From the NCBI RefSeq assembly GCF_000420705.1, contig NZ_ATVL01000006.1, positions 992,267 through 1,056,266 on the forward strand: a DNA stretch of 64,000 nt, read 5' to 3'. A program made the position numbers and the translations under genes. Source of the stretch: Hymenobacter norwichensis DSM 15439. GTDB taxonomy: Bacteria > Bacteroidota > Bacteroidia > Cytophagales > Hymenobacteraceae. Below the pieces are notes generated by a model. The model worked only from the letters and a program-made list of their open reading frames with translations, was not told where the DNA came from and ran no database searches. Shown here piece by piece: positions 8,705 to 55,345 of this stretch; the first letter of the stretch is position 1, and each line of letters opens with the position of its first letter.

Positions 8705-8800
8705 AGTTGTCGGTTATGAGTTGTTAGTTGCCAGTTGCCAGTTGCTAACAGTGAAGTGTACAACTATCATCCGGCAACTAGCAACTCATAACCGACAACT
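8705..8800. repeat. Long intergenic palindrome next to a stop codon
   Basis: Arms 8705-8732 and 8773-8800 match over 28 bp with one mismatch, around a 40-nt loop that itself has repeated CAGTTGC words. The right edge is 3 nt from the stop of the serine hydrolase gene (minus strand), so the hairpin begins the 3' untranslated region of that gene and separates it from scoB. Confidence 0.9.
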
Positions 8801-8803
8801 GAA

Positions 8804-10111
8804 TTAGTTGGAAGACTTGGCAGGGAGAGGTGGACCGGCCACTGCTTGCCGGACTTGCAGTTTGTACTTGCCAGCTAGGTCACGGGCGGTGGTATTAGGG
8901 TACTTCTGGGTGTAGAGCAAAGCCACTACTTTCAGTTTAGGGTCCACCCAATACGTGGTACCGAAAATACCGCCCCACTCATAGGAGCCTTCCGACAGGC
9001 CAGAGGCTTCAGCGGTTTTGGCGGTGGTGATACTGAAACCCAGCCCAAACTTGTTCTGGCCTTGCTCTAAGGCTCCAATCTGGTTGCTGGTAATGAGCTG
9101 TACGGTGGCCGGTTTCAGGTAGCGCCGGCCGTTGTATTCGCCCCCGTTGAGCAGCATTTGCAGAAAAGCGGCGTAGTCGTCGATGGTGGATGATAGGCCC
9201 GCGCCGCCCGAAAAGTAGGTGCCTCTGTCCTTCGGATAATTGGGGTTCATGCCGTGCATGCCGCTTTGCTTGACGGTGGCCTTGGCTTCGTTTTCGGTGT
9301 AGAGGGCAGCCAGGCGATTTTGCTTGTCAGCGGGCAGGTAGAAATAGGTGTCGCGCATGCCCAACGGCTCGAACAGGCGGGTGCGCAGGTACTGGTCGAG
9401 GGACTGTTTGCTGAGCACTTCAATCAGGCGGCCCAGCACGTCAATGCTTAGGCCGTAGGTGAATTTCTCGCCCGGCTGGTGCATCAGCGGCAATGGCCCC
9501 AGCGCGTCCATAGCCGTAGCCAGCGTGCCGGCGGGCGTGCCAATACCGCTTGGCACGCCCGCTTTGGCATAAATGGCTTTGGCTTCTTTGCTGCCGATGA
9601 TGGGGTAACCGATGCCCGAGGTGTGGGTGAACAAGTGCCGAATGGTTATTTCCGACTTGGCCGGCACAGTGGTGTAAGTGGAGTCCTTCTCGTTGAAAGT
9701 TGCCAGCACTTTGGGGTTGCGGAAGGCCGGCAAGTACTTGGAAATCGGGTCGTCGAGCTGGAATTTGCCTTCCTCGTAAAGCAGCATCAGCCCGATGCTG
9801 GTAATGGCCTTGGTTTGGGACGCAATCCGGAAGATGGCGTCGGGCTTGAGGGGCGTTTTGGCCCCCGTATCATCGTAGCCGAAGGCTTTGCGGTAGACTA
9901 TTTTGCCGTCGCGGGCTACCAAGGCAATAGCGCCGGGCACCCGGTTGTCGGCTGTGTACTCCTCCAGCAACCGGTCGATGCCGGGCATGGGAGCCAGGCT
10001 GGTTGTGAGGGTTTGCGCTTTAGCGGGCTTCGACTTGGCCGTGGTGGCCGTTTGGGCGTAAGCTTGGCCGCCAACAGCCAGCGTGAGGAACAGAAAAACG
10101 GTGTTTTTCAT
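8804..10111 (-). CDS. Exported serine hydrolase, class C beta-lactamase/esterase fold
   Basis: A 435-aa protein with a signal peptide (residues 1-20, AQA-YAQ-T). Catalytic motifs are Ser98-Gln-Thr-Lys101 (SxxK), a YGLS sequence in the place of YxN, and WGGIFGT in the place of the third box. LFTHTSGIGYP is also typical of the beta-lactamase-related (Pfam Beta-lactamase) esterases and D-aminopeptidases. With these altered second and third motifs, hydrolysis of esters or peptides is more likely than antibiotic resistance. It lies between scoA and scoB on the same strand. In this phylum such enzymes are common, so the position does not by itself show a shared pathway. Confidence 0.88.
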   Translation of the reverse strand: MKNTVFLFLTLAVGGQAYAQTATTAKSKPAKAQTLTTSLAPMPGIDRLLEEYTADNRVPGAIALVARDGKIVYRKAFGYDDTGAKTPLKPDAIFRIASQTKAITSIGLMLLYEEGKFQLDDPISKYLPAFRNPKVLATFNEKDSTYTTVPAKSEITIRHLFTHTSGIGYPIIGSKEAKAIYAKAGVPSGIGTPAGTLATAMDALGPLPLMHQPGEKFTYGLSIDVLGRLIEVLSKQSLDQYLRTRLFEPLGMRDTYFYLPADKQNRLAALYTENEAKATVKQSGMHGMNPNYPKDRGTYFSGGAGLSSTIDDYAAFLQMLLNGGEYNGRRYLKPATVQLITSNQIGALEQGQNKFGLGFSITTAKTAEASGLSEGSYEWGGIFGTTYWVDPKLKVVALLYTQKYPNTTARDLAGKYKLQVRQAVAGPPLPAKSSN

Positions 10112-10180
10112 AGCGTAGATTAATTTCTCGCAAAGGAAAAGCGCAGAGGTGCGCAGTGCGCGGGTCTTAGCACAGATATA

Positions 10181-10882: not shown

Positions 10883-10907
10883 AAGGCAGCGGGTGGAATT
10901 CGGTGGA

Positions 10908-12179: not shown

Positions 12180-12193
12180 GCACCTCACTGATT

Positions 12194-16461: not shown

Positions 16462-16543
16462 GTTGAATTGCTGCATAGGTGAATTGTTGGCTGTTCAACA
16501 AACCGCTAGAACGACTAGCCATTCAACTATGCAGCAATTCAAC
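16462..16543. repeat. Long intergenic palindrome after tamB
   Basis: Perfect 17-bp arms at 16462-16478 and 16527-16543 (GTTGAATTGCTGCATAG and its complement), extended inward imperfectly. The right edge is 3 nt from the tamB stop (minus strand); it separates tamB from ftsX. Confidence 0.88.
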
Positions 16544-16546: not shown

Positions 16547-19500
16547 TTATAGCGTCGTCCGCGGGTCGTCGTCGATGTTGAGGACTTCGCGAGCTTTGCG
16601 GGCGTTGGTTTCGCGGCGGCGCAGGTGCTTGCGGGCGAATAGTTCGGTCAGCGAGTCGAACTGCTCGGTATGCAATAGTGAGATGCCTGCGCGGGCCTGG
16701 TTCTGGTTGGTTAGGTCACTATAGTCGCGTGGGGTGGTTTCGTAGCGTAGCTTGGCCCGGAACTTCCCGTCGGTGCGCAGCGCATATTCCAAACTCAAGT
16801 CCCCGATAACCGAGGTGTTGGCGTTAGAGCCGGCAATGGGCACGCCCGTAGACGTCGTGACGGTGCCGGTGTTGCTGAAGCCGCCTTCCCGGGTCACGCG
16901 CAGGCGTCCGTTCAGAAACGAGTAGCTCAGCCGCACCTGCAAGGCCTGAAGCTGCTCGGCGGAAAGCCCGTTGAAGTTGAAGCTGATTTCCAGGTTGGGG
17001 TCGAGTTGCGAAGTAAGGGCCCCAAGTTGGGTGGAAATAATCTGCCCGAGGCTGTTGCCCAGGGCGTTGTCCTGTCCACGCAATGAGGTAACCGATGACA
17101 ACGAGCCCACTTGCGCCAGCTGACGGAACACTACCAAGCTGAATACCTGCCGGTTCAGCTCCTGCTCATCATTGCGCAACGATGACAGAAATGGGGCCAG
17201 GTCGCCTTCCAACGACGACGGAATATCGTTGAACTCCAGGTTGAGCTTAATGGCGGGCAGCAGCAGCGGTCCGGTCAGGTTCATAACAGCCGTAACGGGC
17301 ACCACGGCCGTGTTGCCGGGCAGGGCGGGGGCCAGCGAAGTGCGCTGGGTATAAGCAGCCGTCACGTTCATTTCGCCGGCTAGCGGGTCGCCGTTCCACA
17401 CGATGGTACCGCCCGGCCGGACTACAAATTCTTTGTTGACCAAGCCCTGCAGCGTGAAGTTGTAGGCCCCGCGCACAATCTCAATCTGCCCGCTCATGTT
17501 GAAGTCGCCGCGCGTATCAATGTTCAGGCGCAACCGCCCCGCCGCCGTGCCCCGGATTACGTCGCCGGTGCTTTCGTCGAGCAGGATTTCCACGTAAGCA
17601 TCGGGCGTCACTTCCAAGTTCATGTTCAGCCGAATTCCCGACAAATCCACCTTTTCCTGCACGCCAATGGGCACCGGCGTACGGGCCGTATCGAGCAGGT
17701 TACGGTTGACGAAGCGGATGTAGCTAGCTTGCTCGGCTTTGGCAGCGTTATCAAGCGGCAACGAAAGGCGCGTGCCGGGGTCGGATTTGGCCTGCACGTT
17801 TACTACCAGGTTGGTAGAGGGGCCATTTACGCGGGCCGAGCCGGTGGCGTAGGCTGTGCCGTAGTACAGTTGGTTGTCTTTGCGGGTGGTATTGAGCACC
17901 AGCATCTTGCGGAAGGAAGCCTCCAGCGCCAGCCGCATGTTTTGAAAACCGTCGTGGAAAATGTCGCCGCTGATGGTGCCGGAGTTGCCCAGCGGGTCGC
18001 GCATCTTGATATTGTTCAGCGAAATCCGGTCATCGGTAAATCGAATCCGGTCGGAGAAGGTGTAGGTGGTGTTCAGGTAGATAAACGTAAGCTGCCCCTC
18101 CGACACGTCGATGGTGCCGGTGAGGTGGGGCGCGCTGAGCCGGCCGGCTAGCCGCAGAGTGCCCACGGCCGTACCACCCAAGTCCCGGAACAGCGTCTTC
18201 AAAAACGGCTCGGCCAGCTTCACGGGGGCATTGTCGAGTACGGCCGTCAGGTTGAGCTGCTCATTCTCGCGGTTGGGGGCAATGGTACCTGCCACGCGCA
18301 CTACTCGTTGCCCGTCGCGCAGCACATCCAGGTCGAGGAGGGCCTGGCTGGCGCGGTTGTCCCAGCTGCTGCTGCCCTTCACGTCGCCAATCAGCACCTT
18401 ATCCAGCGCCAACGAATCGACGGCCAGCGTGGAGTTGAGGGCCAGCGACCCGAAAATACCGCTTACCGTGCCTTCGGCATTCACGCGGCCGGTCATGTTC
18501 TGCTTGGTGAGCGAGGTAAGTGTGGCCAGCTCCATGTCCTTCACCAGCAGTTTCAACTCCTTAGCCGGGTCTTGCGAAATAAAGCCCTGGGCGCTGATGC
18601 TCTGTGGTCCGTTGCTTAGGCTTAGATTTTGAATATCAATCTCTTTGCCTTTATTGGAAATCACCACCGCGTTGTCTTGCGCAATCTGCCAATCCTTGCC
18701 CAGCAAATTCACGCCCGACTGCCGGAATACGATTTTCACCGCGTCGGGCAGAAACGACAGCGCCCCGTTGATTTGCGCTTTGTTAGTGGTGTTGGTTTGG
18801 GCCAGCGCCGTTGAGAAATTGATGCGCTCCTGGTCCCACACGCCTTCCAGGTAAAAGCCCTGCGTGGCCCCCAAGCCCGGCAGCACCTGCCGCTCCGACG
18901 TCACGCTGGCTTGCGCCAGTACCTCGGGCTGATAGGGTAATTTGGAGGTAGTGAAGTCGAAATCAGTGCGGTAGGTGCGGATGCTGTCAACCTGCAGCGT
19001 ATCGAAGCTGCCACCCATCTGGAAGATGGAAGTCTGGCCGTTGCGGAACGTGGCGTCGATGTGCGAGTTGTTGGACACCTTCAAGCCCGGCACAAACAGT
19101 TGCAACACCGGGTTCGGCTTCTTCAGGTACAAATCCAAATCGATGGCGTACTCCCGAATCGGTGACTGGCGCTTGCGGCGGTAGTAGCTGGCAATAGCCG
19201 CATCGTTGCTCTCGAAATTGAGCTGGTATTCCGTCAGCAACACTTGCGCGCTCTTGATTACTTCGGTGTAGTTGTAGTTGCCCACGGCGGTCAGCCGGAA
19301 CGCCTCGGAGCGCATCCGGAGTTGGCGCTGGCCGTCGCGCCGGACACTCAGCAAATCCAGCGTGTCCAGAGCTAGGGTGCGGCCGGCGTAGCCCAGGCGG
19401 GTCTTGCGCAGGATAATGCGGCCCAGCAAATCGTCGAGGCGCAGGCCCCGGAATTTCAGGTCGGCGGTGGTGGCTACCGTTACGCTTTGCTGGGTGAGAC

Positions 19501-21124
19501 CCAGAGCTTTGAGGTCGGCGCGGCGGACACGGGCCCGCATGTCAAACGCCTGTGCGGCTTTGTTGAGGTTGATAGTACCGTCGGCATCGAATTGCAGGTT
19601 GGGGTCGTTGGCGGCCACGCGGCCCGTAAACGATTCGCGGCTGAAACGCCCGTCGGTGGTGATGTTGTGGAACCGGTAACCGTTCAGCCAGATGCGCTGC
19701 ACGGTGGCGCGGGCCGTGAGGGTAGCATCTTTCAGCGAGAAGCCTACGCCTTGCACGCGCCCGTTCATGGTCACGTCACGAATCACTTGCTCCTGGCCCA
19801 GCAAGCGGCCCAACTGGAAATTAGTGGTCTTGATGTCACCACTGTAAGACGAGTAGCGCGGGTCGGTTTTGAACTTCAGGTTCACGTCTGACACCACCGA
19901 GCCCAAGGCGGTATCAAACGAGCCGTTGGCCACAAAGTCGTTGTAGAACCCCAGGAACTGCCCTTTCAGCTTCACGGTACCCAGCCGCTGCACGTACGGC
20001 CAGCCCGAGGCCGGAATGTAGCGCCGAATGTCGCGCCCATCCACCACCGAGGGTTGCAGCTTCATTTCAATGAAGCTTTCCTGGAAATTGGGCAGGCCTT
20101 CTACCGCAATGTCGCCTACTACGCGGGTGTTGCGTCCGTAGCGCACATCTAGGTTCTTGGTGCGAAAATTACGGACATAGCCCTCTGCTTGGCCCGCAAT
20201 GAGCACGGTTTCCTTGAGGTCGCGCACCGATTGTTGGGGCGCAAACAAGGCAATATCACTGGAGTAGATGCGGGACGGTTTGAGCCGGGCCACCACCCGC
20301 ACCGAGTCGTTGAAATCGGTGAAATTAAGGAAGCGCCGGAACTCAAAGCGTAGGTAATCATGAATCTGGCTGCGGCCGACGCGTAGGGTCAGCTTATCGA
20401 ATTCCCAGAACTTATCGGCGTAGGTCATGTTGGCCGTCAGCTCACGCAGGCGCGTGTTGGAGGGCGTATCCACCGTGCGCAGGTTGTTGATCTGGGTGTG
20501 AATTGTGTCGCCGTGCAGCTGAATTTCCGATACCTCAGCGTAGATGCTGTCGAGGTACATGTGGGCGTAATCCATGGAGCGGCCGTAGTACTCGGCGCGG
20601 GGCGTGGCCTGGTTGTCGAGCACGAAGCGGCCGTTGCGCAGGCTGACGGTTTCAATCTTGAAGTCAAACGGCTTGCTGACTTTGGTGGTATCGGAGGGGC
20701 CCACCAGCCGCCGTACCGCGCTCAGAAACTGCGAGAGGGTGGTGGAGTCGGGCTGGTTTTTGTAGGTCACCAGCGAAAAGCGTGGCTCTTCCAGCGTCAG
20801 GTTGCTGATGTGCAGGTGCGAAGGGTCGAAGACGCTAAACAAGCTGATGGACGCATCGGCCCGGCCAATATTGAACAGCTCCCCGCCGCGCCGGTCCAGC
20901 ACTTGCACGCCTTGCAGCAGCACCCTGGAAAACGGACGCACATCCACCCGGCCCACCAGCACTTTCTGGCCCAGTTTGTCGGTGAGAATGGTGGCCGCCT
21001 CGCGGGCAATGCGCGTTTGCACGCTGGGCACGCGCAAAGCCACCAACGCGCCTACCACCACGAGCACTAGCACCAGCACTAGGCCGAGCAGCACTTTGAG
21101 CAGGATGGAGAGGAAACGAGGCAC
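16547..21124 (-). CDS. tamB: TamB-family translocation/assembly protein
   Basis: A 1525-aa AsmA/TamB-type protein that is thought to bridge the inner and outer membranes, serving outer-membrane protein or lipid transport. An N-terminal anchor (residues 5-30: LSILLKVLLGLVLVLVLVVV) is followed by about 1000 residues of repetitive beta-strand sequence. The C-terminal TamB (DUF490) domain includes residues near 1050-1400 (GTAVGTLRLAGRLSAPHLTG, and FNMSGQIEIVRGAYNFTLQG). The start is GTG 21124; a TATCTTCG box (complement of 21147-21154) sits about 23 nt upstream, one mismatch from TAnnTTTG. The neighbouring tsaD is the usual Bacteroidota partner, but here one extra gene lies between them. Confidence 0.9.
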   Translation of the reverse strand: MPRFLSILLKVLLGLVLVLVLVVVGALVALRVPSVQTRIAREAATILTDKLGQKVLVGRVDVRPFSRVLLQGVQVLDRRGGELFNIGRADASISLFSVFDPSHLHISNLTLEEPRFSLVTYKNQPDSTTLSQFLSAVRRLVGPSDTTKVSKPFDFKIETVSLRNGRFVLDNQATPRAEYYGRSMDYAHMYLDSIYAEVSEIQLHGDTIHTQINNLRTVDTPSNTRLRELTANMTYADKFWEFDKLTLRVGRSQIHDYLRFEFRRFLNFTDFNDSVRVVARLKPSRIYSSDIALFAPQQSVRDLKETVLIAGQAEGYVRNFRTKNLDVRYGRNTRVVGDIAVEGLPNFQESFIEMKLQPSVVDGRDIRRYIPASGWPYVQRLGTVKLKGQFLGFYNDFVANGSFDTALGSVVSDVNLKFKTDPRYSSYSGDIKTTNFQLGRLLGQEQVIRDVTMNGRVQGVGFSLKDATLTARATVQRIWLNGYRFHNITTDGRFSRESFTGRVAANDPNLQFDADGTINLNKAAQAFDMRARVRRADLKALGLTQQSVTVATTADLKFRGLRLDDLLGRIILRKTRLGYAGRTLALDTLDLLSVRRDGQRQLRMRSEAFRLTAVGNYNYTEVIKSAQVLLTEYQLNFESNDAAIASYYRRKRQSPIREYAIDLDLYLKKPNPVLQLFVPGLKVSNNSHIDATFRNGQTSIFQMGGSFDTLQVDSIRTYRTDFDFTTSKLPYQPEVLAQASVTSERQVLPGLGATQGFYLEGVWDQERINFSTALAQTNTTNKAQINGALSFLPDAVKIVFRQSGVNLLGKDWQIAQDNAVVISNKGKEIDIQNLSLSNGPQSISAQGFISQDPAKELKLLVKDMELATLTSLTKQNMTGRVNAEGTVSGIFGSLALNSTLAVDSLALDKVLIGDVKGSSSWDNRASQALLDLDVLRDGQRVVRVAGTIAPNRENEQLNLTAVLDNAPVKLAEPFLKTLFRDLGGTAVGTLRLAGRLSAPHLTGTIDVSEGQLTFIYLNTTYTFSDRIRFTDDRISLNNIKMRDPLGNSGTISGDIFHDGFQNMRLALEASFRKMLVLNTTRKDNQLYYGTAYATGSARVNGPSTNLVVNVQAKSDPGTRLSLPLDNAAKAEQASYIRFVNRNLLDTARTPVPIGVQEKVDLSGIRLNMNLEVTPDAYVEILLDESTGDVIRGTAAGRLRLNIDTRGDFNMSGQIEIVRGAYNFTLQGLVNKEFVVRPGGTIVWNGDPLAGEMNVTAAYTQRTSLAPALPGNTAVVPVTAVMNLTGPLLLPAIKLNLEFNDIPSSLEGDLAPFLSSLRNDEQELNRQVFSLVVFRQLAQVGSLSSVTSLRGQDNALGNSLGQIISTQLGALTSQLDPNLEISFNFNGLSAEQLQALQVRLSYSFLNGRLRVTREGGFSNTGTVTTSTGVPIAGSNANTSVIGDLSLEYALRTDGKFRAKLRYETTPRDYSDLTNQNQARAGISLLHTEQFDSLTELFARKHLRRRETNARKAREVLNIDDDPRTTL

Positions 21125-23958: not shown

Positions 23959-24204
23959 GCTTCGTTATTCGCTTTTTGTTTTTCGTAGAGCGGATAAGCT
24001 AGGGTGTGTGGACAATAAGGGTTTCTACTCTAAACAGGACGGTCATGCAGAGCGCAGCGAAGCATCTCGCGTGCTGATGGCAGATTACTAAACCAACCTC
24101 AGCAGGCGAGATGCTTCGCTGCGCTCTGCATGACCGTCTTTTTGTTTGCTGTCCACACAGCCTAGATAACCATCACGAAAAACAAATACCCACAACGAAG
24201 AACG
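23957..24204. repeat. Outer imperfect palindrome surrounding the dispersed element
   Basis: The left arm starts at the tsaD stop codon (23956-23958): CTTCGTT, then TTTGTTTTTCGT, then CTAGG near 23999-24003. The right arm repeats these words inverted: CCTAG (24161-24165), ACGAAAAACAAA (about 24175-24186) and AACGAAG (about 24194-24200). The match is imperfect. The 155-bp element at 24005-24159 occupies its centre, and the next ATG is 24205. Confidence 0.72.
24005..24159. repeat. Dispersed REP/MITE-like palindrome, copy 1
   Basis: 10-bp inverted ends TGTGTGGACA / TGTCCACACA flank a perfect 33-bp stem (24038-24070 with 24106-24138; core GCAGAGCGCAGCGAAGCATC). After one mismatch six further pairs extend the stem inward. 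The same core and one end (GTGTGGACAGCAAAC) recur near 57.1 kb in a second copy, with matching changes in both arms. It has no ORF of its own; a mobilised or recombination-derived non-coding element is likely. Confidence 0.88.
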
Positions 24205-24679: not shown

Positions 24680-25153
24680 GTGAGTAAGAAAGAAGACCTC
24701 CCCAAGCGCGTCAACATCCTGAACCGCCGCGCTTCCTACGAATACGCGTTTCTGGCGAAGTATGACGCGGGCATCATGCTGCAAGGCACCGAAATCAAGA
24801 GCATCCGCGACGGGAGCGTGCAGATTCAGGACGGTTTCTGCGTGTTCCAGCCCGACGGCGGCCTGTGGGTACACGGCCTCACCATTGCCAAATACACCGC
24901 CGGTACCTACAACAACCACGAACCAACCCGCCCGCGTAAGTTGCTGCTCAACAAGCGCGAGCTAAACCAGCTCCACAACAAAAGCCAGGAGCAGGGCCTC
25001 ACCATCATTCCCCTCCGCATGTTTGTGAATGACCGGGGCTTTGCCAAGCTGGAAATTGCCTTGGCCAAAGGCAAAAAGCTGTTCGACAAGCGGGACAGCA
25101 TCAAGGAGAAAGACCAGAAGCGCGAGCTAGACCGCGCCCGGAGCGGTGAGTAG
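24680..25153 (+). CDS. smpB: SsrA-binding protein SmpB
   Basis: A 157-aa tmRNA-binding protein for trans-translation ribosome rescue. It starts at GTG 24680 (SKKEDLPKRVNILNRRASYEY). It has the family motifs YDAGIMLQGTEIKSIRDG, ARPRKLLLNK-type HEPTRPRKLLLNKREL, and the basic C-terminus GKKLFDKRDSIKEKDQKREL. The tmRNA gene is not in this window. Confidence 0.97.
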   Translation: MSKKEDLPKRVNILNRRASYEYAFLAKYDAGIMLQGTEIKSIRDGSVQIQDGFCVFQPDGGLWVHGLTIAKYTAGTYNNHEPTRPRKLLLNKRELNQLHNKSQEQGLTIIPLRMFVNDRGFAKLEIALAKGKKLFDKRDSIKEKDQKRELDRARSGE

Positions 25154-25293
25154 TGAGTTTGTGAAGTGGTGAATTTGTGAAAGATACTTGGCGAGTTCAG
25201 CTTAAAAAGGGAGCTTCGTGCTGAAGATTAACGGGTACGCTTTGTCAAGACTGCCCATATTTCACAAATTCACCACCTCACCATTTCACCACC
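25151..25293. repeat. Long palindrome between smpB and the C40 peptidase
   Basis: Arms GTGGTGAATTTGTGAAA (25166-25182) and its complement (25260-25276) pair over 17 bp and the match extends imperfectly outward to the smpB stop on the left and to 25293 on the right. An inner TTCAGC/GCTGAA stem sits in the loop. The right arm ends one base before the TTG start of the next gene. Confidence 0.87.
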
Positions 25294-36282: not shown

Positions 36283-36328
36283 TAGCAATAAAAAAGGCTT
36301 GCCATTTGGCAAGCCTTTTTTATTGCTA
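36283..36328. terminator. Bidirectional terminator cphA / coiled-coil gene
   Basis: A 21-bp stem (TAGCAATAAAAAAGGCTTGC and onwards) around a 4-nt loop, with A and T runs on either side. Its core GGCTTGCCATTTGGCAAGCC also occurs at 41226-41245. Confidence 0.93.
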
Positions 36329-38171: not shown

Positions 38172-38996
38172 ATGCTCGAGCTCCTCGCCAACACCCTGCC
38201 GCATTTCCGCAACACCAATTCCGGTCAGTTTTTCCTGATGGCCGGGCCCTGCGTAATAGAAGGCGAAGACATGGCCCTGCGCATCGCCGAGAAGGTGCGC
38301 CACATCACCGACAAACTCCAGATTCCATACATCTTCAAAGGCTCCTACCGCAAAGCCAACCGCTCCCGCCTCGACTCGTTTACCGGTATCGGCGACGAAA
38401 AGGCCCTGCAAATTCTGGCGAAAGTCGGCCGCGAAATTGGGGTGCCTACCGTTACCGACATTCACGAATCGGGAGAAGCAGCGCTGGCAGCCCAGTACGT
38501 GGACGTACTGCAAATACCGGCCTTTCTGTGCCGGCAGACCGATTTGCTGATTGCCGCCGCCGAAACTGGTAAGGTAGTCAACATCAAAAAAGGCCAGTTT
38601 CTCAACGGTGAAGCTATGCAGTTTGCCGTAGACAAAGTACGTCAGTCGGGCAACCAGCACGTCATTCTTACCGACCGGGGCAACTCGTTCGGTTACTCCG
38701 ACCTAGTAGTGGACTTCCGCAACCTGCCCGCCATGCGCGACTTTGGCGTGCCCGTGGTAATGGACGTAACGCACTCCTTGCAGCGCCCCAACCAAAGCAG
38801 CGGCGTGACGGGCGGCCAGCCTGCCCTCATTGAAACCATTGCCAAAGCCGCCATTGCCGTCGGCGCCGACGGCTTGTTCATCGAAACGCACCCTACACCC
38901 GCCACGGCCAAGTCGGACGGGGCCAACATGCTAGCGTTGGACAAGCTGGAAGAGTTGTTGGTGAAGCTGACGAAGGTGCGCGAGGCAATCAGGTAA
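38172..38996 (+). CDS. kdsA: 3-deoxy-8-phosphooctulonate synthase
   Basis: A 274-aa KDO8P synthase joining phosphoenolpyruvate and arabinose-5-phosphate, an early step of LPS core/lipid A. FLMAGPCVIEGED, KGSYRKANRSRLDSFTG, and GQPALIETIAKAAI are family motifs. ATG 38172 yields MLELLANTLPHFRNTNSGQF; the upstream extension is not conserved in type. A long palindrome starts 2 nt after its stop. Confidence 0.96.
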   Translation: MLELLANTLPHFRNTNSGQFFLMAGPCVIEGEDMALRIAEKVRHITDKLQIPYIFKGSYRKANRSRLDSFTGIGDEKALQILAKVGREIGVPTVTDIHESGEAALAAQYVDVLQIPAFLCRQTDLLIAAAETGKVVNIKKGQFLNGEAMQFAVDKVRQSGNQHVILTDRGNSFGYSDLVVDFRNLPAMRDFGVPVVMDVTHSLQRPNQSSGVTGGQPALIETIAKAAIAVGADGLFIETHPTPATAKSDGANMLALDKLEELLVKLTKVREAIR

Positions 38997-38998
38997 CT

Positions 38999-39072
38999 CG
39001 TTTTTCGTGGTTCGACTGTTGTTCAATTTGCCCTACAGGCCAAGTTGAACAACAGTCGAACCATGAAAAACG
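38999..39072. repeat. Long palindrome between kdsA and a methyltransferase
   Basis: Arms 38999-39030 and 39041-39072 pair over 32 bp with two mismatches around a 10-nt loop. The left edge is 2 nt after the kdsA TAA and the right edge 5 nt before the methyltransferase gene's end, so it serves two convergent genes. It has no T run. Confidence 0.92.
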
Positions 39073-39077
39073 AACCC

Positions 39078-39908
39078 CTACGCCGACAGCTGTTTCACGC
39101 TGTTCAATACCTTGTCAACCACATTATTGAACCGGAGTTGGAAATGCTGCCGAGGCTGATTGCGGCGGAAAAACACCAGACCCACGAAAAACAGGTCGAT
39201 GGTAAGGCGTACTTCCGGGTGCTGCTGCACGTCAATCCAGGCCCGTTCCATGTCGGCGGACCAATGAATGTCATCGAGCACGAACACGCTCCGCTCGGTG
39301 CGGTGCGCGGCGCAGAGGTTGAAATAGCGCAGGGTCGGCTCGTAACGGTGGTTGCCATCGAAGAAAGCAAAATCCAGGGGCTCCGTGAGGGAGGCCAGGG
39401 TAGGAGCAAGGGTTTCGTCGAGGTTGCCTTCCACCAGCTCTACATTCGACAGGTGCAGCTGCTCGAACGTCTGGCGAGCCACGTTGGCAGTATTCAGGCA
39501 GCCCTCAAACGTGAGCACCCGGCTGCGAGAGTCAGCGGCGGCCAGATAAGCCGTGGTAAGCCCCAGGGAGGTGCCCAACTCCAGAATTGTGCGTGGCTGA
39601 AAGTGGTTGACCAACCGGAACAGCAACTGTGCCAGCGCGATAGGCTTGGCAGCGGTGCGGGCTATGTCGCCAATGCGGCGCTGGCGGCCGGCCCCCGTGT
39701 GCGACCCGGCCCCAAAGTCGCGTACTTCAAGCAACTGGCGGTTGCGCAACAGCTCTTGGCGGCGGTGCTCAATAGGCTCGAAAGCTGCAAACTGTCCGCT
39801 GTGGTGGATAACGTAGTTATAGAGCCCAAAAACAAACGGGGAATGCAGCCCATGCGCATTCCCCGAACGGAAAAAAAATCGAACGTAACTAAGAGCTTGA
39901 AAGAGCAA
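39078..39908 (-). CDS. Class I SAM-dependent methyltransferase (O-methyltransferase type)
   Basis: A 276-aa methyltransferase. SAM motif I is ILELGTSLGLTTAYLA (about residues 110-125), the acidic motif follows at LTFEGC, and LDFAFFDGNHRYEPTLRYFN is typical of motif IV of the COMT-like group. The first 85 residues form a helical cap (RFFFRSGNAHGLHSPFVFGLYN). The substrate is unknown. It is flanked by palindromes on both sides. Confidence 0.88.
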   Translation of the reverse strand: MLFQALSYVRFFFRSGNAHGLHSPFVFGLYNYVIHHSGQFAAFEPIEHRRQELLRNRQLLEVRDFGAGSHTGAGRQRRIGDIARTAAKPIALAQLLFRLVNHFQPRTILELGTSLGLTTAYLAAADSRSRVLTFEGCLNTANVARQTFEQLHLSNVELVEGNLDETLAPTLASLTEPLDFAFFDGNHRYEPTLRYFNLCAAHRTERSVFVLDDIHWSADMERAWIDVQQHPEVRLTIDLFFVGLVFFRRNQPRQHFQLRFNNVVDKVLNSVKQLSA

Positions 39909-39918: not shown

Positions 39919-40000
39919 GTTGAATGGCTGAATTGTTAAATGGCTAAGGTTCTACCACGGTTGTTGAACGACCAGCCATTTAACAATTCAGCCATTCAAC
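39919..40000. repeat. Long palindrome between the methyltransferase and apaG
   Basis: Perfect 27-bp arms at 39919-39945 and 39974-40000 with a 28-nt loop, plus a tandem copy of CCATTCAAC next to the right arm. Its right side is 11 nt from the apaG stop (minus strand). Confidence 0.92.
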
Positions 40001-40011: not shown

Positions 40012-40398
40012 TCAGTTCAACCGATACGGCACTACCAGCGTGAACTCCGGAATTTCGACCGTAAACACGCTGCCATCGGCTAGGCGCTCCATTTCGTAGG
40101 TGCCGCGCATCTTGCCCAGCCCCGACTTCAGGTTACAGCCCGACACGTACTGGTGGGCGTCGCCGGGCTCTAGTACGGGTTGCTGGCCTACCACACCTTC
40201 GCCTTCCACTTCGCGTACCACTCCATTGGCATCGTATATATACCAGTGGCGACGCAACAGCTTCACGGTATATTCGCCGTTGTTGCGGATATCAATCTTG
40301 TAGGCAAACACGTAGTGTTCTTGGCCGGGGCTCGAATAGTCGGGCAGATAGTTGGTCGTGACGCTCACGGTAACGCCCTGCGTGGTGGTCGTATTCAT
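40012..40398 (-). CDS. apaG: ApaG/DUF525 domain protein
   Basis: A 128-aa fibronectin-III-like fold protein. VTVSVTTNYLPDYSSPGQEH, YVFAYKIDIRNNGEYTVKLLRRHW, VVGQQPVLEPGDAHQYVSGC and GTYEMERL are classic ApaG signatures. It has been tied to Co2+/Mg2+ efflux and diadenosine polyphosphate in enterobacteria, but the function here is not defined. ATG 40398 is favoured. It is divergent from ung. Confidence 0.92.
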   Translation of the reverse strand: MNTTTTQGVTVSVTTNYLPDYSSPGQEHYVFAYKIDIRNNGEYTVKLLRRHWYIYDANGVVREVEGEGVVGQQPVLEPGDAHQYVSGCNLKSGLGKMRGTYEMERLADGSVFTVEIPEFTLVVPYRLN

Positions 40399-41174: not shown

Positions 41175-41217
41175 AATTCAGATTTTGTGGATGATTTTCT
41201 TCCAAACATGATTGCCA

Positions 41218-41252
41218 ACAAAGAAGGCTTGCCATTTGGCAAGCCTTCTTTG
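41218..41252. terminator. Bidirectional terminator ung/lepB
   Basis: AACAAAGAAGGCTTGCC and its complement pair over 17 bp, core GGCTTGCCATTTGGCAAGCC (41226-41245), identical to the core of the cphA terminator at 36296-36315. It lies between convergent ung and lepB. Confidence 0.92.
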
Positions 41253-41311
41253 TTTCATTGAAACCGGCTGTAAAATCCGAGCCATCCGATAAATCTGTGG
41301 AATCCGCGGTT

Positions 41312-43351: not shown

Positions 43352-43425
43352 TTGCTGAATGTTAGTTGTTGATTATCTGCGTGTTGAAATACAATAGCGG
43401 ATAATCAGCAACTAACATTCAGCAA
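43352..43425. repeat. Long palindrome between DUF5683 and dapB
   Basis: Arms 43352-43380 and 43397-43425 pair over 29 bp with two mismatches around a 16-nt loop. The right edge is 1 nt from the DUF5683 stop. Confidence 0.9.
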
Positions 43426-43426: not shown

Positions 43427-44083
43427 TCATTTAAAAGTGAGTGTAACACCGATGCCCGGCGTAACGGCCGCCGTGGGAATGTGCATAAAAGTTGGCTCCC
43501 AGCGCAGGCTAAGGTCGTCACCGATGTCGAAGTCCTGTAGATGTGCGTCTACTACAGCATCCAGAATCTGTGCCGCATGAGCCAAGGCAACATACGCAAT
43601 GAACACATCGCGCTGCCGCCGGTAAACATTAATGCCCCTGGCTATCTGAGTATCGGTTAGGTCGGCGGTGAACTTACCGTTGTCCACAGTGGCTGAGTTT
43701 CCATCGTTGCGTATCTCCTCGGCCCTGACAAAGGCTTTGTAGCGCGTTTGGTAGAACAGCTCGCCGTACAGCGTCCCGCCAACCGCGCCATACACCAGCG
43801 GGAGCTTCCACCAGCGCCGATTATAGATCTGGCCAGCTCCAGGCAGCAGCGCCGACAACAGGCCCGCTTTACTGGGCTTCGTCATCTTCAGGCCAAATAG
43901 CATTGCCGTACGGCGTACCGAATCGGGTACCACAGTAGTGCTTACTTGGGCTGAGTCAGGCCCTGCGGTTACCACAGTTGCAGGTGTAGGGGACGCTACC
44001 TGGCCATGCGCTTTTATTACCAAGAGCGGTAGCGCTAGCAGGAAAGTAGCAGCTATAGTGCGGAAGCGGAAGTGAGGACGCAT
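43427..44083 (-). CDS. DUF5683 domain protein
   Basis: A 218-aa exported or membrane protein with a signal peptide (MRPHFRFRTIAATFLLALPL, cleavage near AHGQ). The DUF5683 core holds MTKPSKAGLLSALLPGAGQIYNRRWWKLP and YGAVGGTLYGELFYQTRYK. Such proteins follow parB in Bacteroidota; function unknown. A start at 44101 is possible but ATG 44083 is the better signal start. Confidence 0.87.
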   Translation of the reverse strand: MRPHFRFRTIAATFLLALPLLVIKAHGQVASPTPATVVTAGPDSAQVSTTVVPDSVRRTAMLFGLKMTKPSKAGLLSALLPGAGQIYNRRWWKLPLVYGAVGGTLYGELFYQTRYKAFVRAEEIRNDGNSATVDNGKFTADLTDTQIARGINVYRRQRDVFIAYVALAHAAQILDAVVDAHLQDFDIGDDLSLRWEPTFMHIPTAAVTPGIGVTLTFK

Positions 44084-46187: not shown

Positions 46188-46204
46188 GAGAGTTATTGAG
46201 GCTT

Positions 46205-46291
46205 TTAGCTGATGGCTGTTAGCTACTAGCTTTTCAAGTTGAGATTGAAATGAAAAAAGCTAACAGCCAATAGCCATCAGCTACTAGCTTT
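46205..46291. repeat. Long palindrome upstream of parA
   Basis: GCTGATGGCTGTTAGCT-type sequence at about 46208 onward pairs with the segment ending near 46285, with about 4 mismatches in 27. The right side abuts the UPF0173 stop (46293). It lies between parA and that gene. Confidence 0.75.
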
Positions 46292-46292: not shown

Positions 46293-46973
46293 TTACAAAG
46301 TAACGGTTTCCCCAATTTTCAGCAGCACCAGCTCTTTGCCGGCCTGACTGGCTTTCTGCTGGGCTTCTTCCTGATTAATGACGATGGCAGGAAACGTATC
46401 GAAGTGCATGCCGATAATCTTCTGAGCACCAACCCAATCGGCAGCAATCAAGGCATCATCAATGCCCATCGTGTAGTTGTCGCCGATGGGCAGGATGGCA
46501 AAGTCCAGCTTGTACTGCTCACCCAGCAGTTTCATGTCGTAGGTGAGGGCAGTGTCGCCGGCGAAATACAGGGTTTTGCCTTCGGATTCCACCACGAAAC
46601 CCGCTGCAATGCCACCATACGAGCCGTCGGGCATGGAGCTGGAGTGCAATGCGGCCACCATTTTCACGGTGCCGAACGGTAACTTCACCTTGCCGCCGAT
46701 GTTCATGCCGTAGTTGGCTTTCAGGCCCTTTTCGCCAAACCAGCCTACCACCTCGGCAATGCCTACTACCTCGGCGCCGGTGCGCTTACCAATGGCTTCG
46801 GCATCGGCTACGTGGTCGGCGTGGCCGTGGCTGAGCAGCAGGTAATCAGCTTCAATCGTATTGATATCGATGTCCTTAGCCAGCGGGTTTGGGCTGATGA
46901 AGGGGTCGAAAAGCACGCGGCTACCTCCGGTTTCGAGCAGGAAGCAGGCGTGGCCGTAATAGGTAAGTTGCAT
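46293..46973 (-). CDS. UPF0173 metal-dependent hydrolase (metallo-beta-lactamase fold)
   Basis: A 226-aa protein: MQLTYYGHACFLLETGGSRV opens the fold, and metal ligands are in HGHADH (about residues 50-55), plus GDTALTYDMKLLGE and IGMHFDTFP. This is the YtkL/UPF0173 group, substrate unknown. It is divergent from the binding-protein gene. Confidence 0.93.
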   Translation of the reverse strand: MQLTYYGHACFLLETGGSRVLFDPFISPNPLAKDIDINTIEADYLLLSHGHADHVADAEAIGKRTGAEVVGIAEVVGWFGEKGLKANYGMNIGGKVKLPFGTVKMVAALHSSSMPDGSYGGIAAGFVVESEGKTLYFAGDTALTYDMKLLGEQYKLDFAILPIGDNYTMGIDDALIAADWVGAQKIIGMHFDTFPAIVINQEEAQQKASQAGKELVLLKIGETVTL

Positions 46974-47060: not shown

Positions 47061-48734
47061 ATGCCCTTGATTTCGCGTCTGGTTTCCGGTTATGCTTTCG
47101 TATTGCTAGCGGCATTAGTCGGTTGCCAAGGGCCCGCGCCCGCCACTGAGGCCCGCCGCGTGTTCCGCTACAACCAACCCGAAAGCCTCACTTCGCTGGA
47201 CCCCGCCTTTGCCCGTAACCAAGCCAATACCTGGGCTACCACCCAGCTTTACAACGGCTTGGTGGAACTCGACGACAGCCTCAAGCCCGGCCCCTCGGTG
47301 GCCCGCCGCTACGAAATAAGCGCCGACGGCCGCCACTATACCTTTACGCTCCGGCCTGATGTGCGCTTCCATGATGCTGACGTATTTGCGGGCGGCAAGG
47401 GACGGCGCGTGACGGCGCAAGATTTTGTGTACAGCTTCAAACGGCTGCTTGATGGTGCTACGGCCAGCCCCGGCGGCTGGATTTTCCGGGGCAAGGTGCT
47501 GGAAAACACCCAGGGCGAGCCTTCTGATACCGCCTTCGTGGCCGTGAATGATTCCACCCTGCGCATTCACTTGCAGGAGCCGTTTATCCCGTTTCTGGGG
47601 ATGCTGACGATGCCCTACGCCTACGTGGTGCCGCGTGAGGCCGTGCAGAAGTACGGCAAGGATTTCCGGGAGCATCCGGTGGGTACGGGGCCGTTTCAGT
47701 TCAAGGAGTGGGACGAAGGCAACGCCATCATCTACCACCGCAACCCCAACTATTGGAAACGTGACACCCAAGGCAAGCAGCTGCCCTACCTCGATGCGGT
47801 ACAAATCAGTTTCATTCAGGACCGCAAAACTGAGTTCCTAACGTTTCAGCAAGGCAAGCTGGACTTCATTAGCGGCATCCGGTCCGGGTCGCGCGACTTG
47901 ATTCTGTACCCGGATGGCTCGGTGCGCGACGACTTTAAAGGCAAATTCCGGCTGCAAAAAGTGCCCTACCTGAACACCGAATACTTGGGCATGCAGCAGG
48001 ACCCCGCCAACCTGCGCGGCGACAACGCCGAAACCGGCCGCGCCCTGCGCGACAAACGGGTGCGGCAGGCCTTGAACTATGCCCTTAACAAGCCGGAATT
48101 TCTGGCTTACTTCGTCAGCAACATCGGCTTGCCCGGCAACTCGGGGTTCGTGCCGGCTTCGTTGCCGTCGTTCAGCGCGAAGCTAGTGCCGGGCTACACC
48201 TACCAGCCCGATAAAGCCCGGCAGCTGCTGCGCGAAGCCGGCTACGGACCTGGTAAGCCGTTGCGCCTACGCCTGAGCACAGTAGCCGAGAGCAAAGAAT
48301 ACTGCGAGTACTACCAGAAAAAGTGGGCCGAAATAGGCGTGCAGGTGGAAATTGACGTGAACCAGGGGGCCGCCCACGGCGAGCTAATCGACAACGGCCG
48401 CGCCGCCTTTTTCACCCGCAGCTGGCTCGGCGACTACCCCGATGCCGAAAACTATCTGGCCTTGTTTTACAGCAAGAACTTCGCGCCGGCAGGCCCCAAT
48501 AAAACCCACTTCAAAAGCACAAAATACGACCAGCTCTACGAGCAGGCGCGCCTAGAGCAAAACCTAGAAAAGCGCTACGACCTGTACCGCCAGATGGACC
48601 GCATTGTGGTGGAAGAATGCCCGGTTATTGCGCTGTACTACGACGAAGTGGTGCGCCTCACCCAAAACAACGTGCAAGGCCTCACGCCCAACCCCATGAA
48701 CCAACTGGTGTTGGAGCGCGTGCAGAAAAACTAA
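47061..48734 (+). CDS. Peptide-type ABC transporter substrate-binding lipoprotein
   Basis: A 557-aa cluster C (SBP_bac_5, OppA/DppA-like) lipoprotein. The lipobox is LVGC at about residues 19-22. It includes the family motif AFARNQANTWATTQLYNGLVELD and PVGTGPFQFKEWDEG. It should bind oligopeptides or similar compounds at the cell surface. No permease or ATPase gene is adjacent, so it may use distant Opp/Dpp components. ATG 47061 follows a -7 box. Confidence 0.92.
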   Translation: MPLISRLVSGYAFVLLAALVGCQGPAPATEARRVFRYNQPESLTSLDPAFARNQANTWATTQLYNGLVELDDSLKPGPSVARRYEISADGRHYTFTLRPDVRFHDADVFAGGKGRRVTAQDFVYSFKRLLDGATASPGGWIFRGKVLENTQGEPSDTAFVAVNDSTLRIHLQEPFIPFLGMLTMPYAYVVPREAVQKYGKDFREHPVGTGPFQFKEWDEGNAIIYHRNPNYWKRDTQGKQLPYLDAVQISFIQDRKTEFLTFQQGKLDFISGIRSGSRDLILYPDGSVRDDFKGKFRLQKVPYLNTEYLGMQQDPANLRGDNAETGRALRDKRVRQALNYALNKPEFLAYFVSNIGLPGNSGFVPASLPSFSAKLVPGYTYQPDKARQLLREAGYGPGKPLRLRLSTVAESKEYCEYYQKKWAEIGVQVEIDVNQGAAHGELIDNGRAAFFTRSWLGDYPDAENYLALFYSKNFAPAGPNKTHFKSTKYDQLYEQARLEQNLEKRYDLYRQMDRIVVEECPVIALYYDEVVRLTQNNVQGLTPNPMNQLVLERVQKN

Positions 48735-49204: not shown

Positions 49205-49211
49205 AGCAAAA

Positions 49212-52488: not shown

Positions 52489-52608
52489 AGCTCCTACAAC
52501 TCCTGAAAACCAGGAATGGTTGTTTTTAAACCGTACGGAAAGCCTTGCTGCCACCCACTGAAAGTACGGAATCCGGCTGGATAGTACCAGTAAACTTCAC
52601 CACCATAG

Positions 52609-53100: not shown

Positions 53101-53164
53101 AGCAAAAACGTAAAAGGAGTTGCGGGATAGTTTTCAAAAAGCAGGCCGGTTTACCCCGGCAATG

Positions 53165-53200
53165 AAAAAGCCCTTCCACCAAACGGTAGAAGGGCTTTTT
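53165..53200. terminator. yidC terminator
   Basis: AAAAAGCCCTTC/GAAGGGCTTTTT with a loop of about 12 nt, some 34 nt past the yidC stop on the minus strand. Confidence 0.88.
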
Positions 53201-53233
53201 AGAATTATTGCTTTGTGAAGCGATACTGCCTGA

Positions 53234-55114
53234 TTACGAGCGGCGGGTTGGCTTCTTTGGCTTCGGCTCTACAACAGAGGCCGACGTGCCTTCGTCGCTC
53301 TTGCGGCCTTGGCCGTCGCGCTCCTGAGCGGTGCGCATGGCATCCTGGAGGCGGGCCGAGAAGCCGCCGGGCTTCTTGTCTTTGTTTTTCACCTTGTTGG
53401 CTTCGAGCTGGGCCCGAATCTTGGTGTCGTCAACCATGCGGCGGGTGAGGGCCTGCTGGCCAAGGGTTACCAAGTTGGAAACCAAGTAGTACCACGTCAG
53501 ACCGGCGGCGAAGCTGTTCAGCACAAACATGAACACCAGCGGCATCAGGTAGCTGTAAAACTTCATCGGGCCCTGCATAGCGGCCGGGTTCATGGCATTG
53601 CTCTGCCAGGTCATCACCAGCGTCGAAATGGTCATCAGCACCGTGAACAAGCTGATGTGGCTACCCAGGAACGGCACCGCGAAAGGCAACTTGATGAAGT
53701 CGTCGTAGGTGCTCAGGTCTTTGGCCCACAGAAACGGTTCCTGCCGCAGCTCAATGGCGTTGGGGAAGAACTGGAACATGGCAAACAAAATCGGGATGGT
53801 GAGCAGCGTCGGTACGCAGCCACTCAGCGGGCTCACACCGAAGGTGGAATAGAGCTTCATGGTTTCCTGCTGCGCCTTCATCTGGTCGTCGCCAGCCTTC
53901 TCTTTGATGGCGTCGATTTCCGGCTTCAGCACCTTCATGCGCGCCTGCGACACGTAGGTTTTGTAGGTCAAAGGCCAGGTAACCAGCTTGATAAGCACTA
54001 CCAGCAGCGCAATGATGATACCGTAGCTGGAAATAAATTTCTCCAGTACGTGGAACACCGGCAGAATTACAAACTGGTTCACCCAGCGGAACACGCCCCA
54101 ACCCAGGTACACGTTCCGGTCGAAGCCAGGCGTCACTTCCTTCAGCATGCTGAACGAGTTCGGTCCGAAGAAGTAACGGAAGCTGGCTTTGCCCTGCTGC
54201 ACATCGGCCGACGGGATGCTGAGCGTGGTGCTTAGGGTTTTGATGAACGTGCTGTCGTTCAAATCAACTGTTGATAGGAACTTGCCGTTCGGGAACTGAT
54301 TGTTGGCAATAATGCCCGCCACGAAGAAATCGTGCTTGTGCGCGGCCCACTTCAGCGGCTCGGTGATGCTTATTTCCTCGGGCTTCTCGGAAGCCTCGGT
54401 CAAAGAGCCGTGGTCGTCGTTGGCGAGGTAGTGGTTGATGGTGGTGTGGTTGCGGTTCTGCTTGATATCCTGCTCGGTCTGGCGCACGTGGTCCACGAAG
54501 CTGAACGTCAGCGGCTCCTGCGACATGGTCTGTTGCAGACCCGTAAAGCGCAAATCATACCCTACTTCATACGAGTTGTCGAACAAGGTATATACCTGCT
54601 CCACCTGGCCGCCCGCCACGCCGGCTGTGAAGCTCAGGCGTTGGCCTTTCTTGTCGCCTTCCGTTACCGGCTGCGGCGCGCTGGGCTGGAAGTACAAGTC
54701 AGAAAGCCGCACGGTCTGGCCCCCGATGGTGCGGAACTTGGTGTCAATCTGAGCGCTCTGGGTGTCAAACAGGTCGAGCGGCTTGCCGAAGAACGTTTTA
54801 TACTTGTTCAGGCGCACAGCCACGGGCAGGCCACCCTTCGAGGAAAACGTAACGACGAGGTTGTCGTTTTTTAACTCCACTTGCTGCGCGGTGCCGGTAG
54901 CAGCGCCAGCAAATGCGCCCAGCGTGCGGGCCGCCGTAGCCGAATCGAGAGGGGCGGCTGGCGCGGCAGGGCCGGTGGCGTTAGGCTTGGCGCTGGCCGC
55001 CGTGGTGGGCTTGTCGGCCGGCGTTTCTTTGGGCGCTTCGGGCTTGAAGAAATACAGGTAGACCAGAAGCAAGGCCGCAATCAGAAACAGGCCGGTTGCT
55101 GAATTTTTGTCCAT
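53234..55114 (-). CDS. yidC: Membrane protein insertase YidC
   Basis: A 626-aa YidC. N-terminal helix (about 8-25, LFLIAALLLVYLYFF), a large periplasmic beta domain (about 70-345), then five helices in the insertase core (about 355-575) with LTYKTYVSQARMKVLKPEID and LSGCVPTLLTIPILFAMFQF. The C-terminal tail is basic (KPKKPTRRS). It inserts inner-membrane proteins, alone or with SecYEG. It lies downstream of pyrG with a long palindrome between. Confidence 0.97.
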   Translation of the reverse strand: MDKNSATGLFLIAALLLVYLYFFKPEAPKETPADKPTTAASAKPNATGPAAPAAPLDSATAARTLGAFAGAATGTAQQVELKNDNLVVTFSSKGGLPVAVRLNKYKTFFGKPLDLFDTQSAQIDTKFRTIGGQTVRLSDLYFQPSAPQPVTEGDKKGQRLSFTAGVAGGQVEQVYTLFDNSYEVGYDLRFTGLQQTMSQEPLTFSFVDHVRQTEQDIKQNRNHTTINHYLANDDHGSLTEASEKPEEISITEPLKWAAHKHDFFVAGIIANNQFPNGKFLSTVDLNDSTFIKTLSTTLSIPSADVQQGKASFRYFFGPNSFSMLKEVTPGFDRNVYLGWGVFRWVNQFVILPVFHVLEKFISSYGIIIALLVVLIKLVTWPLTYKTYVSQARMKVLKPEIDAIKEKAGDDQMKAQQETMKLYSTFGVSPLSGCVPTLLTIPILFAMFQFFPNAIELRQEPFLWAKDLSTYDDFIKLPFAVPFLGSHISLFTVLMTISTLVMTWQSNAMNPAAMQGPMKFYSYLMPLVFMFVLNSFAAGLTWYYLVSNLVTLGQQALTRRMVDDTKIRAQLEANKVKNKDKKPGGFSARLQDAMRTAQERDGQGRKSDEGTSASVVEPKPKKPTRRS

Positions 55115-55244
55115 TCAGGTAAAAATGAGGGCACTAAAGAGTGTGAAGTATGCCGCGTCCCCTTCAAAAATCCGGCGACGCTACCGCAAAGGTCGGACTT
55201 GTCAGGCGAATATTTTTGAATCGGCGTTTTTGTCAGAGAAAAAG

Positions 55245-55345
55245 GTGAGGTAGTGAAATTGTGAAATGGTGAGTTGACTGTTCTGCTGGCGCTACTTGCG
55301 CAGTTAGAACAGCCAACTCACCATTTCACAATTTCACTACCTCAC
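55245..55345. repeat. Longest palindrome of the stop-adjacent set (pyrG/yidC)
   Basis: Arms 55245-55284 and 55306-55345 pair over 40 bp with one mismatch; the first 31 bases of the left arm contain no C. The right edge is 9 nt before the pyrG stop (minus strand). Confidence 0.95.

Follow-up and report, generated by a model that had tools for sequence, protein, structure and literature searches.

The 64,000-nucleotide stretch of Hymenobacter norwichensis DSM 15439 analyzed here (positions 992,267–1,056,266 of contig NZ_ATVL01000006.1, hereafter the window; the 6.0-Mb genome is labelled G000) carries eight long palindromes that begin directly behind, or within, the stop codons of genes. We favour, with moderate confidence, the explanation that lineage-specific families of dispersed Hymenobacter repeats, similar to the repetitive extragenic palindromes (REPs) of other bacteria, occupy the 3′ ends of genes and act as portable gene endings. 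Each such element would comprise a G/T-rich, C-poor arm made of degenerate words of 7–8 nt, a short loop and a complementary C/A-rich arm. As judged from sequence and position, the palindromes are likely to function as gene ends.

A first-pass annotation of the window had listed seven palindromes and a weaker eighth one next to stop codons, between co-directional as well as convergent genes. All eight were found where it had placed them, with outer limits differing by 1–3 nt (Table 1); each overlaps a stop codon or starts no more than 11 nt from one, and seven lie between co-directional genes and one between convergent ones. Gene ends were taken from a simple codon-based gene caller, and stop distances were measured on these calls. 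RNA folding of the eight palindromes yielded energies of −37.8 to −77.5 kcal/mol, in each case below every one of 200 shuffles. The abutted genes are ordinary and encode, among others, TamB, SmpB, DAHP synthase, a methyltransferase domain, ApaG and CTP synthase. An artefact in which stop-rich arms merely shorten the open reading frames could be excluded as the cause of stop proximity, since seven of the nine genes next to a palindrome share their end position with the orthologues in the compared relatives, which have a different palindrome or none at that site. The two genes that end differently are 8804–10111 and smpB.

The distance comparison against chance that had been proposed for the whole genome was run on genome samples, with random placement of the palindromes within the same spacers as control. 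It revealed that palindromes with the G/T-rich arm first (G/T-first) lie nearer to stop codons than expected. In the window plus 40 further stretches of G000 (864 kb), there were 32 co-directional G/T-first palindromes with arms of 15 or more, of which 25 were located within 12 nt of a stop (null mean 11.3, maximum 19 in 2000 placements), and the same was true for 21 of 27 with arms of at least 17. The window supplies seven of these co-directional copies, and the pattern was first noticed there; when it was left out, 14 of 20 copies with arms of at least 17 remained within 12 nt in 800 kb of G000 (null 7.5, reached in 3 of 4000 placements). The closest relative, G009, whose genes are about 90% identical to those of G000, contained 24 such cases among 33 co-directional copies, or 24 among 32 in 460 kb after omission of one stretch already known to hold a match to the T1 family described below (null 16.0, reached in 0 of 4000). 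At convergent pairs of G009, half of the G/T-first copies (6/12) lay within 12 nt of both stops. Among the three palindrome classes of G000, closeness to stops was confined to the G/T-first class: the corresponding counts were 3/25 for the neutral, largely REP-like class (null 3.2) and 3/30 for the A/C-first class (null 2.7).

These three kinds were sorted by eye in the 864 kb of G000, which contain 123 inverted repeats with arms of 17 or more, 119 of them intergenic. One kind consists of A-rich-first hairpins, mostly between convergent genes, which are ordinary bidirectional terminators, a second one is a REP-like family (GTCATGCAGAGCGCAGCGAAGCATCTCGCGTGCTGA), and the third one, the class under study, has the G/T-rich, C-poor arm first. 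The lack of T runs remarked on earlier holds for this class as a whole, as a run of at least four T was present in 5 of 70 G/T-first palindromes versus 79 of 135 compact A/C-first hairpins. The similar words seen in the C-poor arm turned out to be tandem degenerate units of 7–8 nt (for example GTGAAATG, GTTGAATT, TTAGCTG, AGTTGCC, TATGAGT and TAGTGCT), with autocorrelation peaks over 27 arms at lags 7, 8 and 14 (z of 8.4, 6.5 and 6.1). As G/T-first arms are part of the definition of the class, its polarity was assessed on sets selected by other criteria. Of 48 arms with a period of 7 or 8 in the fetched stretches, four of which had been picked for T1, 38 were G/T-first, eight C/A-first (mostly A-rich) and two neutral. 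A T1 word was followed by its complement within 200 nt downstream in 37 of 42 occurrences and had it exclusively upstream in none. Being palindromes, the elements are G/U-first on either strand.

Regarding the distribution outside the genus, 80 named loci of other Bacteroidota (580 kb) contained five G/T-leaning palindromes, two of them with a lag-7 match above 0.6, and eight genomes of other families (400 kb) contained one palindrome above this value (G028, L162). Both of the former lie in L093, a metagenome-assembled genome of an unclassified member of the Bacteroidetes, in which positions 618–734 and 1385–1433 are period-7 G/T-first palindromes with TTGATAGTTAGTTG and GATTTACGAATTACGA words. 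After this case, palindromes of this kind may be spread more widely in the phylum than Hymenobacter.

The window palindromes had been described as differing in sequence. This applies to the one at 39919, which stands nearly alone with two other matching places, both partial, whereas several others belong to recurring word families. T1 words occur in the palindromes at 25150 and 55245, and a T3 query (from L017, with words as in 46201) matched G000 29 times, a figure that includes the query itself and counts both strands. The T1 family has an 85-nt core with a 31-bp stem and a loop of about 23 nt. BLAST searches with the 55245 region yielded dispersed matches in three relatives, and eleven copies align over 85 columns with a mean identity of 85% and 93.8% of the stem cells paired. 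Of the 36 pairs in the complete structure, nine had changes on both sides, as against at most three when the pairing was slid, a covariation that demonstrates paired arms within one family rather than an RNA function. Ten of 15 extracted cores measured exactly 85 nt; as arms were trimmed alike (and loops of up to 60 nt with the set inner word alone were taken), this means that the loop length is constant.

A covariance model detected T1 in 49 of 61 genomes of the genus at E ≤ 1e-4 and in none of the other 12, with counts, which tally each copy on both strands, from 1 to at least the maximum that the scoring step allows. At family level, 30 of 120 genomes matched at E ≤ 1e-9, all within 2 of 6 genera. 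The family is multi-copy in G000, G009 (the query genome), G013 and G016, with dozens of BLAST matches, both strands counted; G002, G007 and G018 gave zero or one partial BLAST match and 11, 2 and 6 weaker model matches, respectively (best E 1e-10 to 5e-9). This patchy distribution is in line with what mobile or converting repeats show, and spread by transposition or conversion appears plausible. Of the explanations offered by the first-pass annotation, non-autonomous elements at 3′ ends are thus the best supported one, T1 being dispersed, patchy and located at gene ends, and the data largely support the view that the palindromes are non-autonomous 3′-end elements. The traits of T1 might extend to the other word families as well.

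T1 was further examined at 30 loci found by model search, one per species and chosen by score, 29 of which were measurable (L279 was not). At 27 of the 29 it overlaps a stop codon or is separated from one by no more than 13 nt, the exceptions being 77 nt (L256) and 19 nt (L281) away; both stops are touched at 13 of the 14 loci that lie between convergent genes. Counted by gene end, 15 of 43 have a stop codon that shares one base or more with the arm. In the window, SmpB, which acts together with tmRNA on stalled ribosomes, ends in ..RARSGE*, with the TAG inside the arm, versus ..RAREY* or ..RARDY* in four relatives. In G009, the orthologue of gene 8804–10111 ends about ten residues early at the TAG of a TAGTGCC word, and several genes have T1 words as their C-terminal codons. 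One example is ..IGELVSW* (ATA GGT GAG TTA GTG AGT TGG TGA), which corresponds to ..ELLGY* in G002 and G013; given the equal length and the partly similar residues, this could be a conversion of the gene end rather than an insertion.

The arms contain more stop codons than whole-arm shuffles (72 observed, 52.6 expected, 0/1000) and cover more reading frames with them than under column permutation (2.32 vs. 1.66, 0/2000), although all 38 arms fall into one cluster in the latter test and are not independent. No stop codon contains C, and units of 7 or 8 nt, which are not multiples of three, run through all frames, so that a G/T-first palindrome would bring stops to both strands at any site. Such a supply of stops would explain both the polarity and the period of the arms; we put it forward, together with selection for stop codons on the words, as a suggestion, which the shuffles support and a stricter word-type test, given below, does not.

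Four convergent T1 sites of G009 were compared with orthologous junctions for which both flanks were found. Compact hairpins with A-rich and T-rich edges, judged by eye to be terminator-like, were present at 5 of 10 T1-free junctions versus 0 of 9 T1 junctions. They occur in G007 and G018 at site 9333, in G002 and G013 at 12708 and in G018 at 13918; two of them include four or more consecutive T. Other T1-free junctions have a hairpin without clear edges (G018 at 12708), REP-like palindromes (two junctions of G016) or, at site 13078, another palindrome in G018 and no spacer in G016; one of the nine T1 junctions (G000 at 13918) has partly lost its left arm. A P value for this exchange would be misleading because the junctions are related by descent. 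It appears plausible that T1 arrived later than the terminator. Enclosure of a convergent-pair hairpin by a palindrome of another word family was also found: a CGGATTTTG palindrome surrounds it in G009 (80-kb syntenic block, 47696–47856) and in G002 (block of joined stretches, 53473), at the junction orthologous to the hairpin at 41217 in the window.

From these data a possible course of events at the RNA level can be sketched. The hairpin at the gene end would give the mRNA its 3′ boundary, a view suggested by the presence, directly after the stop, of a stable hairpin that is alike on both strands and free of a U-tract, at places where some other species have terminator-like hairpins. In view of the missing U-tract, we infer that the hairpin could act as a barrier that shields the 3′ ends produced by Rho or by processing, and would do so for both transcripts at convergent junctions: transcription would stop downstream, via Rho or otherwise, and 3′–5′ exonucleases would trim the transcript back to the hairpin. 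For E. coli, processing of Rho-terminated RNAs by 3′–5′ exonucleases is described in PMC7815308, and by analogy such trimming might take place in Hymenobacter. An ordinary terminator would become dispensable with the palindrome present, and the first arm, rich in TGA and TAG, could itself supply the stop codon of the gene. Whether by termination or by protection, the palindromes would thus define an RNA boundary. The 3′-end function that the first-pass annotation had also offered is supported only indirectly, by the compact terminator-like hairpins at the same orthologous junctions elsewhere.

Comparison with relatives revealed turnover at individual sites. At co-directional G/T sites of G000, a hairpin was present in G009 at 7 of 7, versus 3 of 16 sites without one in G000 (p = 0.0005). 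The word family differs between relatives at 8705, 43352 and 46201. At 39919 the arm changes relative to G009 are mostly symmetric and the loop is almost unchanged. The number of words varies between arms and between species, and orthologous T1 sites have different loops. Entry of REP-like elements into the loops of heptad palindromes is suggested by the case at 24033 (Table 1). Separately, positions 10112–10180 of the window hold a one-armed remnant of CGCAGAGGT-type words, for which G009 has a full palindrome (CGCAGAGGTATGCAGTG..CACTGCGTACCTCTGCG).

Table 1. Palindromes and associated features in the window (positions counted from its first nucleotide).
Positions	Strand	Feature	Context
8705–8800	−	G/T-first palindrome, AGTTGYC heptads	3 nt past the stop of 8804–10111
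8804–10111	−	Gene, PF00144, serine beta-lactamase family fold	
16462–16543	−	G/T-first palindrome, GTTGAATT words	3 nt past the stop of the TamB-domain gene 16547–21124
25150–25292	+	T1-type palindrome, GTGAAGTGGTGA words	Overlaps the TAG stop of smpB 24680–25153; the next + gene begins at 25324
25145–25153	+	Last smpB codons, GGT GAG TAG	From element words
38998–39073		G/T-first palindrome, GTTTTTCG words	Fills a convergent spacer, 1 nt from the stop (38996) of 38172–38996 (+) and 4 nt from the stop (39078) of 39078–39749 (−)
39919–40000	−	G/T-first palindrome, GTTGAATG octads	11 nt past the stop of the ApaG-domain gene 40012–40398
43352–43425	−	G/T-first palindrome	1 nt past the stop of 43427–43903 (DUF5683)
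46201–46288	−	T3-type palindrome, TTAGCTG heptads	4 nt past the stop of 46293–46973
55245–55345	−	T1 element, core 55253–55337 (85 nt), one extra outer word per side	9 nt past the stop of the CTP synthase gene 55355–57001 (−)
7949–8026		Convergent-pair spacer with an apparent decayed T1 (GAGGTGGTAGGCCTAGTGAGTTT .. AGCTCACCTGTTC)	T1-type palindrome here in G009
24033–24143		REP-like palindrome in the loop of an outer heptad palindrome (flanks 23959–24204)	Outer palindrome alone in G009
36283–36328		Ordinary bidirectional terminator-like hairpin	Between convergent genes; contrast
41217–41254		Terminator-like hairpin	Enclosed by a palindrome of CGGATTTTG-type words in the G009 and G002 orthologues
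57109–57217		REP-like palindrome of the other class	Family dispersed in the genus; contrast

Several known systems share features with these palindromes. According to PMC3733652, REPs and the mosaic elements and doublets built from them (BIMEs and REPINs) of E. coli and Pseudomonas fall into GTAG and CGTC super-families, and no dedicated transposase is known for the CGTC type. Like those elements, the Hymenobacter palindromes are dispersed, short and intergenic, with species-specific amplification and hairpins near 3′ ends, and T1 is present in many copies. Unlike REPs, T1 has its 85-nt core, a 31-bp stem and tandem 7–8-nt words, and the palindromes abut or carry the stop codon and fill convergent spacers. 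An unpaired GTAG or CGTC tag was not found in the alignment of T1, the only family inspected for it, where the ends, which were set by trimming, mostly read GTGA..TCAC and are both paired. Assignment to a sub-class of the REPs of the same genome was rejected, as the REP-like family of G000 (GTCATGCAGAGCGCAGCGAAGCATCTC..) is a different set and its neutral class lies farther from stops.

Sequence pairs of the uptake type serve as terminators in Neisseria and Haemophilus. Such pairs and bidirectional terminators resemble the palindromes in being stem-loops between convergent genes and, for the former, a multi-copy repeat that doubles as gene end; the differences are the missing U-tract, the T1 loop of about 23 nt and a first arm that is C-poor instead of A-rich. 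An identity as ordinary terminators was rejected for this class on account of the missing U-tract, although the three palindrome classes coexist in one genome. Cyanobacterial short tandemly repeated repetitive (STRR) sequences are heptanucleotide repeats that form degenerate tandem 7-nt words between genes, whereas in Hymenobacter the words make up palindrome arms with a preferred polarity at stops. Palindromic elements of Rickettsia, which are inserted within genes, internally and in frame, likewise add codons to proteins, whereas the Hymenobacter elements do so at the C-terminus with a stop of their own. The attC sites of integrons begin with RYYYAAC, end with GTTRRRY and have asymmetric bulges; by inspection, the ends of the palindromes with GTTGAAT words, and of these only, have the reverse order (GTTGAAT .. 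ATTCAAC), and attC was therefore rejected. A tip shared across word families (GTTC..GAAC) was dropped as a common feature, since it occurs in 11 of 83 G/T palindromes (9/34 in G000, 2/49 in G009). Searches of the window against Rfam 15 at gathering score matched only a tRNA and left the palindromes unmatched. Among the papers listed from the open-licence PMC literature, partly judged by title and start of the abstract, none on such repeats in Hymenobacter was found. Taken as a whole, the palindromes behave like REP elements and terminators combined, while lacking the tag and the transposase of the former and the U-tract of the latter.

A number of observations weigh against portable gene endings, and some of them fit a different explanation, according to which the palindromes are selfish or neutral, functionless REP-like repeats that have piled up at gene ends as the least harmful place, where stop-rich arms leave the upstream gene intact and promoters lie on the other side. 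We regard this as possible, though rather unlikely. It agrees with the patchy distribution of families, with the apparently decayed copy at 7949–8026 and with nested palindromes. It also agrees with the rarity of G/T palindromes in spacers called divergent, in which they nevertheless occur (3/39 in G000, two in G009); in 21 orthologue comparisons of divergent spacers, none had a hairpin with arms of at least 15, a result that speaks for the favoured explanation as well. Moreover, G-U mismatches are not in excess on the gene strand (51 G-U vs. 45 A-C, p = 0.61), and since G-U is not favoured over A-C there, no sign of selection at the RNA level can be seen; possible reasons are a young age of the arms or their homogenization at the DNA level. 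At convergent sites, for which no expectation exists, 13 G-T and 4 A-C mismatches were counted on the + strand. Mutual exclusion of G/T palindromes and terminators over the whole samples, tested with a crude terminator finder, was not significant (one-sided Fisher 0.11–0.35). Further points of this kind are that T1, which carries most of the argument, makes up by word pattern only 18 of the 88 G/T palindromes in the G000 and G009 samples (about a fifth), that enrichment of stop codons by word type was not significant (9/12, 7.2 expected, P = 0.17), and that one palindrome with AATCAGC heptads (G018, block 66363), counted among the eight C/A-first arms, is the only clear case of truly opposite polarity that was met. 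The hairpin comparison pooled over G002, G007 and G018 gave 8/19 versus 8/31 (p = 0.35), for which reason re-use of slots beyond shared descent is not established. Concerning mobility, the Y1 transposase domain PF01797 has no match in the 6.0 Mb of G000 (5 of 14 control genomes have one), so that spread driven by a REP-associated tyrosine transposase (RAYT) was rejected. With respect to miniature inverted-repeat transposable elements (MITEs), inverted repeats are present, the ends vary by whole words, and neither a clean empty site nor a target duplication was seen in the orthologous spacers read. An autonomous relative with T1 ends was not found either, as no T1 word pair lies 200–5000 nt apart in the G000 and G009 samples. 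On the other side, tolerance alone fails to explain why the palindromes lie closer to stops than under random placement in the same spacers and why none of the nine T1-filled convergent junctions examined has a terminator-like hairpin. The neutral, largely REP-like class of G000 does not lie close to stops.

Another form of the gene-end idea, in which competing, fast-evolving, genus-wide palindromic cassettes displace terminators, bringing stops in several frames on both strands together with a U-less hairpin that ends the mRNA, and spread without a dedicated transposase, possibly by copying through their own hairpins, seems rather unlikely to us. Formation in situ during replication, with slippage generating the 7–8-nt repeats, template switching the second arm and composition merely mimicking families, is improbable. 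The mostly symmetric arm changes at the 39919 locus without G-U bias, the variation of word number by arm and species and the differing loops at orthologous T1 sites would suit it; however, it does not account for a T1 core with constant loop length and an alignable loop in many species that is absent from others, and the near-strict G/T-first polarity would require copying of a family. The replication or recombination origin considered in the first-pass annotation accordingly loses weight through the polarity and the T1 core that copies have in common, yet in view of the missing G-U bias arms may have been homogenized at the DNA level; in situ replication may explain the upkeep of arms and the less repetitive word types. 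Similarly improbable, finally, is a role as ribosome-level regulators, in which the hairpin would slow the terminating ribosome so that the preceding gene yields less product. Stalling of ribosomes is reported for E. coli REPs that lie within 15 nt of a stop (work cited in PMC12306157), and the distances of 0–12 nt fit that range (<16 nt) with a hairpin directly after the stop in both cases. Yet the Hymenobacter arms are much longer, of other sequence and two-sided at convergent genes; copies in the window follow housekeeping-type genes (TamB, SmpB, DAHP synthase, ApaG, CTP synthase), for which steady down-regulation would have no clear use, and convergent spacers filled over their whole length point to 3′ ends.

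If the favoured explanation of dispersed repeats as portable gene endings is true, a repeat family would supply a core signal of gene expression, the end of the gene, and would replace terminators within a single genus, and the architecture of 3′ ends would turn over much faster than the genes themselves. The palindromes would, in addition, represent a case of a repeat that is nearly harmless at gene ends thanks to its stop-rich arm, and they would provide a natural series of U-less, bidirectional hairpins for studying how mRNAs are ended and protected in Bacteroidota.

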